This document shows positions 10,463-47,843 of a DNA stretch of 47,843 nt, in pieces. Under the pieces are notes generated by a model, which was not told the DNA's origin, ran no database searches, and worked only from the letters and a program-made list of their open reading frames with translations. Each line of letters starts with the position of its first letter. Within the stretch, counting starts at the first letter, position 1. The position numbers and the translations under genes were made by a program. Origin of the DNA: an uncultured Verrucomicrobiota bacterium (GTDB taxonomy: Bacteria > Verrucomicrobiota > Verrucomicrobiia > Limisphaerales > UBA9464); contig CAIRNV010000451.1 of NCBI GenBank assembly GCA_903880005.1, positions 1 to 47,843 of the forward strand, written 5' to 3'.

Positions 10463-10626
10463 CCGGGACGATTCGGTTGGGAGGGAAATGATTGCGAAGC
10501 AGATGCTTCCGCAGGCCGAGGAGCGAGCGAGGCGCGGGCCGGCACGAGGCCCGTCACGAGCGAACGACGAAGGATTTGCGCAAGCAGATCCAGCAAGCAC
10601 GACCGACCCAACGGAATCGTTCCGGC
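10463..10626 (+). repeat. Family A palindromic element, copy 2
   Basis: This is a near-complete ~164-bp copy. The left arm CCGGGACGATTCGGTTGGG and right arm CCCAACGGAATCGTTCCGG bracket the shared interior (GAAGCAGATGCTTCCGCAGG, CGGGCC/GGCCCG core, TTTGCGCAAGCAGATCCAGC). It lies in the 378-bp gap between the pilB-like start (10324) and the symporter stop (10703), 76 bp beyond the symporter stop. The rest of that gap shows nothing recognisable beyond probable promoter DNA for the pilus operon. Confidence 0.88.
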
Positions 10627-12246: not shown

Positions 12247-12310
12247 TCCCGAAGTTGTGGGTGATCCCGAAACCGTCGTGGGCACGCCGGGACGATTCAG
12301 TTGGATCGTC
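12247..12310. repeat. Remnants of family B and family A elements
   Basis: The stretch from CATCCCGAAGTTGTGGG through GATCCCGAAACCGTCGTGGG matches one arm of the family B element at 29344. It is followed directly by GCCGGGACGATTCAGTTGGA, a family A terminal arm. No partner arms follow, so this looks like two decayed or nested elements in the 238-bp gap upstream of the symporter. Confidence 0.55.
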
Positions 12311-12404
12311 ACGCCCAAGGTGACGCCGAAGCGGGTGCAGCCCGAGCGTGAAGCAAGTGAGGGGCGCGGCGGATATTCCCCCAGGCCGGCGGGCGCCGGG
12401 TGCA

Positions 12405-17959: not shown

Positions 17960-18178
17960 ATGTCCATCAAAGAGGAACCGATCCAGGTCATCGGCACCGT
18001 CACGCAGGTGCTGCCTGGCACCATGTTTCGCGTGGAATTGCCCAACGGGCACGTCGTCCTGGCCCACATCTCGGGCAAGATGCGGAAGAACTTCATCCGC
18101 ATCTCCGTGGGCGACCGCGTCCAGGTCGAGATGTCGCCCTACGACCTCGGCAAGGCGCGCATCACCTTCCGGAATTAG
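17960..18178 (+). CDS. infA: Translation initiation factor IF-1
   Basis: IF-1 binds the ribosomal A site during initiation. The 72-aa protein is a complete single OB/S1 domain: [40 protein letters not shown] and [18 protein letters not shown] are diagnostic. It starts at ATG 17960. It stands alone on the plus strand, divergent from gcvT across a 271-bp gap that holds probable promoters and no other gene. Its stop codon TAG is made by the first bases of a family A fragment, and its last 17 bp overlap the 3' end of the convergent isomerase gene. Confidence 0.97.
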
Positions 18179-19010
18179 CCGGAGCGATGCGGTTGGGAGG
18201 GAAGTGCCGTCGAAAAGACTCCATGGTGGCCTTCATCGCGGCGTCGGCATCGGGCAATGGCCGAACCTCGGCTGAGATCCAGCCATCATAGCCGACATCC
18301 TCCAGCGCCCGGGCGACGGGGCCGACATCCAGGTGGCCCATGCCCACGGCCCGGCGATTGGTGTCCGCGAAGTGGACGTGGCCGATCATGGGCCCCGCCC
18401 GGCGAATGGCCGCCGGCATGTCCGCCTCCTCAATGTTCATGTGGAAGAGGTCCAGGAGGAGCCGGACGTTGCGGGTCCGGAGGGTGGGCAGGAACGCCAG
18501 GGCGTCCTCGACGGTGTTGAACAAGTTGGTTTCGTAGCGGTTGAGTGGCTCGTAAAGCAGGGGCACTTCGAGGGCGTGGGCACGGGGCCCGAGCTGGTCC
18601 AATGCCTCCTTCAACCAAGCCAACGCCTGCTCGCGCTCGACGCCGTCGGGCACGCGGCCTTGCATCGAGCCTAGGATCGCCGGGACGCCAAACCCGCCGG
18701 CGAAATCGATGATCGCCCCGATGAAGTCGCGCGCGCACATGCGGACGTGCGGATCGGGGTCGGTCAATGAAAGCTTCCTGCGGAGCCAACCCGCCCCGGT
18801 GCCCATGGCGGCCATGCGGAGCCCGTTCGCCTGGAGCACGGTGCGCAACTCGCGCCCGTTCAAGTCGTCGGCATGCCCCGGGAAGATCTCCACGCCGTCG
18901 AACCCAGCCTCCGCGGCCCGCCGGAGGGACGCCTCCAACCCGTCGTGCAGGACAAATGGGCCTCCCCTTGCCTCCGGCACCAAGCACACGGTCACCGCGC
19001 ATCGCATCAT
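18162..19010 (-). CDS. Sugar phosphate isomerase/epimerase-like TIM-barrel protein
   Basis: This cytoplasmic TIM-barrel enzyme belongs to the xylose isomerase-like/AP endonuclease 2 family (hydroxypyruvate isomerase and epimerase relatives); the substrate is unknown. The 282-aa protein has [18 protein letters not shown], the barrel strands [52 protein letters not shown] and [10 protein letters not shown], which carry the usual Glu/Asp/His metal ligands. ATG 19010 or 19007 are both possible. It is the last gene of a minus-strand cluster (membrane protein, adk, fmt). Its C-terminal ~10 residues ([10 protein letters not shown]) are encoded by a family A repeat fragment and the end of infA, so the tail has probably been replaced or extended by the element. 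Confidence 0.88.
18177..18206 (+). repeat. Family A element, left-arm fragment
   Basis: The sequence AGCCGGAGCGATGCGGTTGG followed by GAGGGAAGTG matches the left end of the family A element and then stops. Its start forms part of the infA stop codon, and it lies inside the 3' end of the convergent isomerase gene. Confidence 0.75.
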
Positions 19011-25015: not shown

Positions 25016-25021
25016 CGCCTT

Positions 25022-25186
25022 AGCCGGGGCGATTCAGTTGGGAGGGAAGTGATTGCGATGCAGATGCTTGCGCAAGCCGAGGAGTGAGCGAGGCGCGGGC
25101 CAATTCCAGGCCCGTAACGAGCGAACGACGAAGCTCTTGCGAAAGAAGATCCAGCAAGCACGACCGACCCAACGGAATCGTTCCGG
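25022..25186 (+). repeat. Family A palindromic element, copy 3
   Basis: The left arm AGCCGGGGCGATTCAGTTGG and right arm CCAACGGAATCGTTCCGG bracket a complete interior. It begins 6 bp after the maf stop in the forward orientation. The core reads CGGGCC...GGCCCG. A 126-bp stretch follows before the SPFH gene, with no other recognisable feature than its ribosome binding site. Confidence 0.9.
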
Positions 25187-25312
25187 ATTAGATGCGTGGG
25201 CCGTGATGGTTCCGCCGGATCGCCACGGCTGGAATTCCGGGTTCACATTCCAATTCTTGCAGGCAGGGTGCAGGGGGCAGGCTGGCCGCGCCTCGAACGA
25301 GAAAGGACACAC

Positions 25313-27718: not shown

Positions 27719-27880
27719 CCGGAACGATGCAGTCGGGAGGGCAGTGATTGCGAAGCAGATGCTTGCGCAAGCCAAGAAGTGAGCGAGGCGCGGGCCAGTA
27801 CGAGGCCCGTCACGAGCGAAGGACGAAGGATTTGCGCAAGCAGATCGAGCCAGCACGACCGCCCCAGCGGCAGCGTTCCA
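27717..27880 (+). repeat. Family A palindromic element, copy 4
   Basis: The left arm AACCGGAACGATGCAGTCGG overlaps the TAA stop of the zinc-ribbon gene. The interior is standard (GAAGCAGATGCTTGCGCAAG, CGGGCC/GGCCCG) and the right arm CCCCAGCGGCAGCGTTCC is the most diverged of the set. The right end lies 24 bp from the convergent FGE-like gene. Confidence 0.88.
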
Positions 27881-29245: not shown

Positions 29246-29324
29246 GCCGGCACGATCCGGTTGGGTCGGCCGTGCTTGCTCGATCTGCTTCGACATCGCT
29301 TCCCTCCCAGCGGCGTCTCTCCGG
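29246..29324 (-). repeat. Family A element with internal deletion
   Basis: Both arms and adjoining interior are recognisable (GCACGATCCGGTTGGGTCGG, then CGTGCTTGCTCGATCTGCTT, then CGCTTCCCTCCCAGCGG) but about 85 bp of the core is missing. It lies upstream of the FGE-like gene. Confidence 0.65.
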
Positions 29325-29343
29325 CGAGGGGTGTCACTCGTCG

Positions 29344-35371: not shown

Positions 35372-35411
35372 TTGCCCGCATCGAATCCAATCGTCGCCCG
35401 CAACGGTGTCC

Positions 35412-36473
35412 ATGCCCACGACCCCGCCTTTCCTTCGGCTCCATCGTGTCTCCTGTCGTCTGGGCCATGTCGAAGCCTTGGCCGACATCAGCCTCGACAT
35501 CGCCCCCGCCGCCCGATGCATCGTCGCCGGCCCTTCCGGGGCAGGAAAAACCACCCTGCTGCGCATCGTCGCAGGACTTCAGCGGCCGTCCGGCGGCCAA
35601 ATCGAGTCCGATGGATGCGACATCACCGGCCTTCCGCCTGAAAGGCGACGCTTTGGATGGGTGGGACCCGAGCCGGGTTTGCTTCCCCAAATGACTGCGG
35701 TGGATCAAGTCGAGTTGCCATTGCGCCTTGCCCATGCCAGCCCCGGCGATCGTCGGATCGCTGCCTTGCAGGCCCTCGAACGGGTCGGCCTCGCCCATCG
35801 CGCAGGGCATCTGCCGCATCAACTCTCGTCAGGCGAGGCGATTCGCGTCGCCCTCGCGCGAGCGAGTGTGAACCAACCGCGATGCCTGCTTCTCGACGAA
35901 CCCTTTGCACGCATGGACACCGCCCAACGCGCCTCGTTGCGCGGTTGGCTCTCCCGCATGCAAGCAAGCACGGGTTGCGCCATCCTTGAGACATCCCATT
36001 GGCTGCAAGAATCCCTTCAGGATGCCTCTCATCTCGCCATCCTGCGTGATGGCCATCTGGTCCAAGCCGGAACCACCCGCCAGGCATGGCAACAACCCTC
36101 ATCCCCTTGGGTCGCTGACTTCCTGTCCGTCTTCCCGATTTGGTGGAGCACGCCAACCGATGCCGCACGGCGGGGGTGGAAGGGGCCGATTCCTGCGCTG
36201 GGATCCGCTTGCCGGCTCATTGGCGTGCGCTTGGACCTTGCTCGATGGGTCGTTGACCCGCCGTCGGAGCCATGCCTGGGCCCGTTGCAAGCATCCCGCG
36301 TGCTTCCCACTGGGTTCACGCCGGCCTTGGACGCCTTGTTTCCCGATGGCGAGCTGCGCCGAATCCCCATGCATGGGGCCGAATCCCCGCCGCAGGTAAA
36401 CACAAAGGGTTGGCTCGCATTCGGGGACGATGCCGTATTGATGACTTCAACGGACGATCGCTCCACAGGTTAG
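35412..36473 (+). CDS. ABC-type ATPase with altered Q-loop and signature (orphan)
   Basis: This 353-aa protein resembles the ATPase subunits of molybdate/spermidine-type importers. Its motifs are Walker A GPSGAGKTT (40-48), Q-loop region WVGPEPGLLPQMTAVDQVEL, signature-like LSSGEAIRVALARASVNQ, Walker B CLLLDEPFARMD and H-loop region LETSHWLQES. In the Q-loop the usual Gln is replaced (VGPEPG instead of VFQ), and the signature is LSSGE instead of LSGGQ. Asp and Glu of Walker B and the H-loop His are kept. The C-terminal ~130 residues do not clearly match a TOBE domain. ATG 35412 was chosen; GTG 35406 is possible. No permease or binding protein is adjacent. Its stop is 6 bp before a family A element. 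Confidence 0.8.
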   Translation: MPTTPPFLRLHRVSCRLGHVEALADISLDIAPAARCIVAGPSGAGKTTLLRIVAGLQRPSGGQIESDGCDITGLPPERRRFGWVGPEPGLLPQMTAVDQVELPLRLAHASPGDRRIAALQALERVGLAHRAGHLPHQLSSGEAIRVALARASVNQPRCLLLDEPFARMDTAQRASLRGWLSRMQASTGCAILETSHWLQESLQDASHLAILRDGHLVQAGTTRQAWQQPSSPWVADFLSVFPIWWSTPTDAARRGWKGPIPALGSACRLIGVRLDLARWVVDPPSEPCLGPLQASRVLPTGFTPALDALFPDGELRRIPMHGAESPPQVNTKGWLAFGDDAVLMTSTDDRSTG

Positions 36474-36478
36474 CCCTC

Positions 36479-36645
36479 AGCCGGGACGATTCAGTTGGGA
36501 GGGAAGTGATTGCGAAGCAGATGCTTGCGCAAGCCGAGGAGTGAGCGAGGCGCGGGCCAGTGCGAGGCCCGTAACGAGCGAACGACGAAGGAGTTGCGCA
36601 AGCAGATCGAGCAAGCACGACCGACCCAACTGAATCGTTCCGGCT
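36479..36645 (+). repeat. Family A palindromic element, copy 5
   Basis: This is a complete 167-bp copy with perfect arms at the inner part (CGATTCAGTTGGG / CCCAACTGAATCG) and ends AGCCGGGA / TTCCGGCT. It begins 6 bp after the ABC ATPase stop. The remaining 110 bp up to the Rrf2 operator show no gene. Confidence 0.92.
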
Positions 36646-37777: not shown

Positions 37778-37959
37778 GCTTGTCCATGCCGTGGGGCGAG
37801 GGGTGATGACGCGATGGGTTCTTCCGCAGGCCCTGGAGCCATCGTGGCGCCCCGGAAAACGGTGCATTCATCAAAGCACGGAGCCCTTGCCCGGGAAGAT
37901 TCAGCCATCACCACCATCCCCACGGGTTCCTTCCAGCCCCTGCCGTCCAACGTGTTAAA

Positions 37960-41743: not shown

Positions 41744-42447
41744 CCCAGGCCTTCTGCGATGCCGCCTTGCGGCTGCCGCACGTCGTGGCCATCGACGGCC
41801 CCAGTGCCTCCGGGAAGGGAACCCTGGCCCGGCGCCTCGCAGCGGACTTCGGCTGCACCTACGTGGATAGCGGGGCCATGTACCGAACCCTTGCGTGGTG
41901 GACGTTGCAAAGCGGGCTGAGGTGCGAGAAGCCCATGAGGCCCTCGGAAGAGGACGCCATCGTGCGGCTCATGCGTCGTTGGGACGCGCGGCTGCGAGTG
42001 ATCGACGGTGCCGCATGGTTCACCGTCGCCGGCTACTTCCCGCGCGAGGAAATCCGATCAGACCGCGTCGAGAGGGCCGTGCCGGTGGTCGCGCAGATCA
42101 CCCGAATCCGCGTCTGGATGGTCGCTCGCCAGCGTGACTGCGCACAGTTTGGCCCGCTGGTCATGGAGGGCCGAGACATCGGGACCGAGGTCTTTCCCTT
42201 GGCGCAGGTGAAGTTCTTCCTCGAGGCCGATGCCGCGGTGCGAGAGCAACGCCTTGCGCAGCGCGGCAATGCGGGCAGCGCGGGGTCCGGGCGGGACGCC
42301 ATGGACGCCACGCGACGCAAGGGAGCCTTGTACCCCGCATTGGACGCCATCCGCATCGACAACACCCACCAAACCCCGGATGAAACCTATGAGATCATGC
42401 GTTCCCACATGGGCAGACTTCGCGTCGCCGGCGCTTGGCCAGCCTAA
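41740..42447 (+). CDS. cmk: Cytidylate kinase
   Basis: Cmk phosphorylates CMP and dCMP. The 235-aa protein has the P-loop VVAIDGPSASGKGTLARRLA, YVDSGAMYRTLAWWTL, the CMP-site region FGPLVMEGRDIGTEVFPLAQ with KFFLEADAAVREQRLAQRG, and IRIDNTHQTPDETYEIM at the end. It overlaps aroA by 4 bp, the widespread tyrA/aroA-cmk arrangement. Its TAA stop is directly followed by GCC of a family A arm. Confidence 0.95.
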   Translation: MTQAFCDAALRLPHVVAIDGPSASGKGTLARRLAADFGCTYVDSGAMYRTLAWWTLQSGLRCEKPMRPSEEDAIVRLMRRWDARLRVIDGAAWFTVAGYFPREEIRSDRVERAVPVVAQITRIRVWMVARQRDCAQFGPLVMEGRDIGTEVFPLAQVKFFLEADAAVREQRLAQRGNAGSAGSGRDAMDATRRKGALYPALDAIRIDNTHQTPDETYEIMRSHMGRLRVAGAWPA

Positions 42448-42612
42448 GCCGGAACGATGCAGTTGGATCGGTCGTGCTTGCTGGATCTTCCTTCGCAAGA
42501 GCTTCGTCCTTCGCTCGTTACGGGCCTCGTACCGGCCCGCGCCTCGCTCACTCCTCGTCTTGCGAAAGAATCTGCGGCGCAATCACTTCCCTCCCAACTG
42601 CATCGTTCCGGC
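42447..42612 (-). repeat. Family A palindromic element, copy 6 (inverted interior)
   Basis: The copy begins in the cmk stop codon with AGCCGGAACGATGCAGTTGG and ends CCAACTGCATCGTTCCGGCC. Its interior is in reverse orientation relative to copies 3-5. Both arms carry GATGCAG/CTGCATC where copy 5 has GATTCAG/CTGAATC, a paired change that keeps the arms complementary. Confidence 0.92.
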
Positions 42613-45372: not shown

Positions 45373-45539
45373 AGCCGGAACGATGCAGTTGGGAGGGAAG
45401 TGATTGCGCCGCAGATTCTTTCGCAAGCCGAGGAGTGAGCGAGGCGCGGGCCAGTTCCAGGCCCGTAACGAGCGAACGACGAAGAATCTGCGCAAGCAGA
45501 TCGAGCAAGCACGACCGACCCAACTGAATCGTTATGGCT
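45373..45539 (+). repeat. Family A palindromic element, copy 7
   Basis: The left arm AGCCGGAACGATGCAGTTGG and right arm CCAACTGAATCGTTATGGCT differ at one pairing position and at the outer TTATGG. The interior has a GATTCTTTCGCAAGCC variant shared in part with copy 6. It lies in a 575-bp stretch without a confirmed gene, preceded by TT so that TTAGCC again appears at its edge. Confidence 0.9.
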
Positions 45540-47329: not shown

Positions 47330-47640
47330 GTCGTTGCGCGCGCAGTACCCTCGCACGCGGCCGGACGCTTAGAACCCGTCAGGATTGGGTCAAGGAAGCG
47401 GCCGTAGAAATACTGGTGCATTTCTCTGAACACGCTCGCGCGCGCCACACGGAAACGAAGGTTCCCATGTCGTGGATCCGGCCGGGCCAGTGCCGCCTCA
47501 CCGGCAGGGTGAGACCCCTAATTCACCCCAAACGGGCCTATCTGCCCCGATGTGATGCCCCTTTCCTTGCCTTGGAATCTCCTTCAACCACCGTGTTTAC
47601 GATTTCAGTGAACGAAGCCATCCCGCGCAGAGGTCGCGGT
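47330..47640. other. Region upstream of the AAA ATPase gene
   Basis: A 311-bp non-coding stretch, locally less GC-rich (for example TGTGTTTACGATTTCAGTGA near 47590), likely holds the promoter of the minus-strand ATPase gene. I see no tRNA or recognisable operator. A minus-strand frame from the tandem repeat runs in to 47538. Confidence 0.5.
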
Positions 47641-47843
47641 ACGTCGTGTAAGGCCATCGGAACGTCGCGCAAGGCCATCGGAACGTCGCGCAAGGCCATC
47701 GGAACGTCGTGCAAGACCATCGGAACGTCGTGCAAGACCATCGGAACGTCGCGCAAGACTATCGGAACGTCGCGCAAGACTATCGGAACGTCGCGCAAGA
47801 CCATCGGAACGTCGCGCAAGGCCATCGGAACGTCGCGCAAGGC
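47641..47843. repeat. 21-bp tandem repeat, at least 9.7 copies, running off the window
   Basis: The unit ACGTCGCGCAAGGCCATCGGA repeats every 21 bp from 47641 to the end of the window. Differences are confined to a few positions (GCGC/GTGC/GTGT, GGCC/GACC/GACT). All frames stay open. The minus strand would encode the heptad LRDVPMV repeated, the plus strand GTSRKAI. Coding status cannot be settled because the tract is cut. Confidence 0.92.

Follow-up and report, generated by a model that had tools for sequence, protein, structure and literature searches.

The window, that is, the whole stretch of 47,843 nucleotides analysed here, corresponds to contig C451 of a metagenome-assembled genome (G000) that totals 5.0 Mb and 492 contigs. 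The named records of its close relatives are freshwater Verrucomicrobia. Copies of one palindromic element, referred to as Family A, lie next to argC, infA, maf, an ABC-ATPase ORF, cmk, nifU and other genes in the window (Table 1).

Copies of the element in the window

Table 1. Family A copies, variants and decayed pieces in the window
Feature	Position	Strand	Context
Element copy, truncated by contig start	1..108	-	CTTAG at 108-112 contains argC stop (TAA, minus strand, 109-111)
Full copy	10463..10625	+	Target duplication not recognisable (ACAAAA / CGAAG); minus-strand genes on both sides
Left terminal repeat of decayed copy	12287..12330	+	Right end not found
Decayed copy	18178..18294	+	Begins at infA stop (TTAG)
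Full copy	25023..25186	+	maf stop 7 nt before; flanks CTTAG (25019-25023), ATTAG (25187-25191)
Full copy	27719..27879	+	Abuts TAA of 26477-27718 gene; left flank ATTAA
80-bp short variant	29246..29325	-	Interior deleted, leaving the two ends fused
Full copy under study	36480..36643	+	ABC-ATPase ORF stop 6 nt before; flanks CTCAG, CTTTG
Decayed full-length copy	37783..37935	+	Shortly past nifU
Full copy	42449..42612	-	cmk stop TAA within CTAAG (42444-42448)
Full copy	45374..45536	+	Flanks CTTAG, CTCAG; minus-strand genes on both sides

The first-pass annotation had placed seven near-complete copies of a ~165-bp inverted repeat in the window. All seven were found in those places, and when aligned in register most were 84-96% alike. 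The size was about right, the element body being 164 nt. Two of the three fragments that it listed, at 12288 and 18177, are decayed copies, while the third (29246-29325) is a complete short variant; the decayed copy after nifU had been missed. The assigned names argC, infA, maf, ABC ATPase and cmk matched NCBIfam or Pfam models, whereas the gene called "zinc-ribbon" had no family match. Contact with the stop codon was borne out at argC, at cmk, at the 26477-27718 gene and, through a decayed fragment, at infA. However, the touching bases, taken at first for the element's own, belong to a 5-bp target, CTNAG. A distance of 6 bp past the stop, given for both maf and the ABC ATPase, was correct for the latter and is 7 nt for maf. 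The claim that all copies except that at cmk share the orientation of the upstream gene did not hold, as the copies at 10463 and 45374 run opposite to their minus-strand neighbours.

Alignments of the argC, infA and maf proteins stop at or close to the end of their family models, and that of cmk reaches 213 of 217 model positions. These stops therefore look native and not truncated. The cmk orthologue in genome G004 ends at a similar place (GCCTAG). Many contigs, including that of the window, end inside a copy, which is to be expected of a repeat that interrupts short-read assembly. A 21-bp repeat, CATCGGAACGTCGCGCAAGGC, forms a tandem array at the contig end (window 47595-47843).

Structure, target site and placement

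The 164-nt consensus is an imperfect palindrome that folds end to end into a single rod (-94.8 kcal/mol). The copy at 36479-36645 folded at -100.6 kcal/mol, with z = -12.3 against shuffles. At both ends the outer 19 positions read CCGGAACGATTCAGTTGGG, most positions being at least 90% conserved. A short form of ~80 bp consists of positions 1-43 fused to 121-164. Both the 164-bp and the 80-bp forms are short, non-coding and bounded by terminal inverted repeats, as is required of a MITE. A profile search of 1.125 Mb found 85 full copies, 17 short-form copies (~80 bp) and many decayed pieces, which made up 2.0% of the DNA; most of the sampled contigs had been picked for carrying a copy, which inflates this density, whereas position and orientation should be unaffected. 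Mean pairwise identity was 89%, and no two of 95 copies were identical. Genome-wide, a core 16-mer had 407 matches compared with ~30 for its reversed control, and the terminal 19-mer marked 743 ends compared with 0 in the control. From these counts we estimated ~370-450 elements, full or short, in the genome.

Some copies lie in unusual surroundings. A PF01609 DDE transposase gene (L041/L148, G000:C31:1-426) holds two tandem copies of the element, and in another genome (L065, G012:C289) the middle of a copy is broken by an unrelated palindromic repeat (CAGCGCAGAG...CTCTGCGCTG). On contig C193 of the source genome (6536-7342, L245), a decayed copy encodes the N-terminus of a prepilin-like gene, a possible exaptation.

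CTWAG was seen in both flanks of copies. The left pentamer equalled the right pentamer in 32 of 96 copies, where 10.9 were expected and the maximum in 2000 shuffles was 21; a target-site duplication is a further property of MITEs. Concordance between the flanks gave z = 7.5 at the middle N, 4.5 at the outer C and 2.9 at the outer G. Since the agreement reaches the outer C and G and is strongest at the middle base, the duplication comprises five bases. When copies were divided by score, exact pairs occurred in 14/32 and 14/32 of the two better thirds compared with 4/32 of the lowest-scoring, older third. Neighbouring tandem insertions have one single CTNAG between them. The limitation of exact duplication to a third of the copies counts against the model, and the missing duplications could have been erased by decay or by recombination between copies, or be an artefact of short-read mis-joins. 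No copy was found in the fetched orthologous stretches of relatives, where the flanks were too diverged to read the insertion site. Likewise, in eight congeners where base-exact empty sites were sought, the intergenic DNA was unalignable. Only 22 unoccupied non-genic CTWAG sites were counted in 1.125 Mb, while ~40-50 copies occupy CTWAG, so the supply of best targets may be almost exhausted.

Placement was examined in the same 1.125 Mb (22% of the source genome), fetched contig by contig. Our codon-hexamer caller defined 785 genes there (87.5% coding); it overlooked the ABC-ATPase ORF at 35406-36473. Only 1 of the 102 full or short copies lay within a gene, an intergenic bias. Of the non-genic copies, 31/101 were at a stop codon (-3 to +2 nt), compared with 3.5% of random non-genic positions (odds 12.4, p = 9e-21), which confirms the earlier view that the placement exceeds chance for intergenic repeats. 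Unoccupied non-genic CTNAG sites were also at stops in 20.3% of cases, leaving the copies an excess with odds of 1.74 (p = 0.07). The stop enrichment is therefore explained nearly wholly by target choice. On one strand or on both, every CTNAG includes a stop triplet (TAA, TAG or TGA), and a stop is preserved when the site is duplicated. The first-pass annotation had proposed a target at TTAG/TAA-like sites, and this idea was supported, with the stop-containing CTNAG as the target. It had also proposed an orientation bias and had named the absence of one as grounds for giving up that part. Over the 1.125 Mb, orientation relative to the gene at stops was the same in 15 cases and opposite in 17 (p = 0.86), so that part falls. 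Gaps holding elements were convergent in 29 cases, co-directional in 48 and divergent in 8, compared with 22, 78 and 20 for CTNAG sites (p = 0.02 over three classes). The convergent excess and the divergent deficit fit a loss of promoter insertions.

A probable IS1380 partner and alternative explanations

Of the 293 genomes of the order that were sampled, 167 had terminal-repeat matches. In one of these genomes (G041), a pair of ends lay 1.5 kb apart (locus L274). There, CTGAG-CCGGAACGATTCAGTTG and CAACTGAATCGTTCCGG-CTGAG enclose a 476-aa ORF that is an IS1380 transposase (NF033539 transpos_IS1380, E 3e-75, 253 bits compared with a cut-off of 180; also PF13701). The locus combines a transposase above the curated cut-off with short inverted ends and a duplication in the 4-5 bp range, which are the defining features of IS1380 elements. 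IS1247, a member of this family, has ends of 16/13 bp and a 5-bp direct repeat (PMC3281130). The source genome itself carries, on contig C131, a 474-aa homologue without internal stops that is 52% identical to the L274 ORF. This contig starts inside the left repeat (AACGATTCAGTTG), so the left end of the insertion sequence is cut off by the contig boundary; the right repeat is followed by CTAAG. A congener (G001) has an internally deleted copy of the insertion sequence between the same ends. The element thus has ends in common with an autonomous element, in G041 at 17 of 17 positions and in the source genome on contig C131. When 1.1 Mb of the source genome was scanned for paired ends, two pairs came up, both of them decayed copies around ordinary genes. 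G004 has ~56 core matches, yet no IS1380 gene was detected in it; the donor may have been lost or may lie in an assembly gap.

The distribution of the element is patchy, as the core is present in some congeners and in scattered families only. In G004, the element is 90-95% identical to copies in the source genome, whereas the genes next to one copy are 74-84% identical, which indicates spread or renewal after the hosts diverged.

With its identical ends and shared target, IS1380 has the best support as donor for a movement that we infer. The IS1380 transposase would be the enzyme that moves the element. Family A is very probably a non-autonomous palindromic MITE that is moved in trans by a DDE transposase of the IS1380 family and whose CTNAG target explains its placement at stops. 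In the proposed mechanism, the transposase would recognise the 17-bp ends CCGGAACGATTCAGTTG and would insert the element at 5-bp CTNAG sites with duplication of the target. As CTNAG always holds a stop codon on one strand, an in-frame stop would persist after insertion, and native stops would be one of the few places where an insertion does no harm, the genome being GC-rich and 87% coding. Genic insertions would be lost by purifying selection, and the palindromic interior would most likely be a passenger module.

The first-pass annotation had also suggested selection as a 3' RNA element, so that copies are retained at gene ends as terminators or stabilisers of mRNA ends. We consider this unlikely. 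The hairpin is very stable, convergent gaps are preferred and a small stop excess remains over CTNAG sites, all of which would suit such a role. However, the loss of promoter insertions also yields a convergent bias, and the 15:17 orientation was obtained despite an asymmetric interior. Many copies are distant from a stop, and Rfam covariance models gave no match at the gathering score or at E up to 5. With no orientation bias and no T-run after the hairpin, nothing requires a role as an RNA element. As a candidate intrinsic terminator the element was rejected, since the CTNAG flank has no T-run and orientation is balanced.

Mobilisation by an enzyme other than IS1380 was also weighed. IS5-group elements are known to use YTAR-like targets, and several further transposases are present, so a MITE with similar ends could have been moved by another DDE family (e.g. 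IS5-like). This is very unlikely, because the 17-bp ends are identical to those of the IS1380 element, and the PF01609 loci of the source and related genomes are unflanked by such ends except for the IS1380 copy on C131 and chance insertions. Even less probable is an origin as REP/REPIN-type palindromes moved by RAYT, the Y1 HUH tyrosine transposase, although the element is palindromic, intergenic and of high copy number, and Y1_Tnp genes occur in the order. REPs do occur in Verrucomicrobia (PMC3733652). The scan of thirty Y1 loci, however, found no element nearby, with a near case in G035 that looks incidental, and G004 has no Y1 match. The ends have no GTAG/CGTC tag, and a duplicated target is unexpected for REPs. 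Membership of REP/REPIN was rejected, as neither the GTAG/CGTC tag at the ends nor, at the Y1 loci scanned, a repeat-flanked RAYT gene was found. Many of the ~25 RAYT-like Y1 genes in G035 are 330-375 aa long; this set is apparently unconnected with the element.

Relation to known repeats and the interior hairpin

Family A resembles the IS1380 family (e.g. IS1247) in its inverted ends of ~16 bp, its 5-bp target duplication and the transposase family of its partner (NF033539, PF13701), and differs in having a long palindromic interior and no transposase gene. With the bacterial hairpin MITEs Correia/NEMIS, ERIC, RUP and Chunjie it shares short length, terminal repeats, target duplication, intergenic location, high copy number and size variants. 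Those elements, however, tend towards AT-richness and most have TA termini (PMC2229807); Family A differs in its GC-rich sequence, its CTNAG target and its link to IS1380. The 168-bp YPAL/RU-2 of Yersinia is a palindrome of similar length that is not AT-rich and duplicates its target, but the duplications are between 3 and 26 bp long and the repeats of YPAL lie internally (PMC2229807). REPs and REPINs are likewise high-copy intergenic palindromes; unlike Family A, REPs are 20-40 bp long and GTAG/CGTC-tagged, the GTAG type being linked to RAYT (PMC3733652).

Our searches of open-access papers found no IS1380-derived palindromic MITE. Within that scope the family is apparently undescribed, and both its link to IS1380 and the explanation through CTNAG are new. 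The striking placement is accounted for by an ordinary mechanism, namely a MITE with an IS1380 partner and a target that contains a stop. A regulatory-looking position on stop codons can stem from the target of a transposon, as CTNAG carries a stop and its duplication keeps one. A large and, it seems, undescribed group of GC-rich palindromic MITEs in Verrucomicrobia is now tied to IS1380 transposases, which makes their mobilisation testable.

The interior was compared in 18 representatives from Verrucomicrobia and Planctomycetota records that could be aligned through it, five of which (L157, L164, L166, L187 and L193) have unrelated outer arms. RNAalifold predicted 21 pairs in this alignment, 13 of them with compensatory changes. 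The purine-rich tip is nearly invariant and has no standard-pair complementarity (GAGGMGNGAGCGAGGCG ... AACGAGCGARCRACGAAG); invariance of its right side is inflated, as that stretch served as the search pattern, while the left side lay outside the pattern. Judging from the sequence, GAGCGA facing GAGCGA could pair there in tandem sheared G.A steps. Movement does not require the interior, since the short form has dispersed without it, and sequence copying from one arm to the other, rather than selection, could also maintain the complementarity of the arms. It is conceivable but rather unlikely that the interior hairpin has a function of its own as a structured module, either ssDNA or RNA, which transposon shells with differing ends have carried in Verrucomicrobia and Planctomycetota.

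Eight Planctomycetota and other records (L157, L164, L174, L176, L166, L187, L193 and L200) have the same interior hairpin with other ends, e.g. GGGACCGCGCAAAAATAA and GCGGCGTTAATAAAT. Some of the interior carriers with different ends are flanked by TTAG/CTTAG. It appears that ends and interiors are modules that can be swapped. Other, strongly palindromic elements of ~190-225 bp in three genomes (L275-L280; G028, G039 and G073) have the outer 17 bp of Family A and unrelated multi-hairpin interiors.
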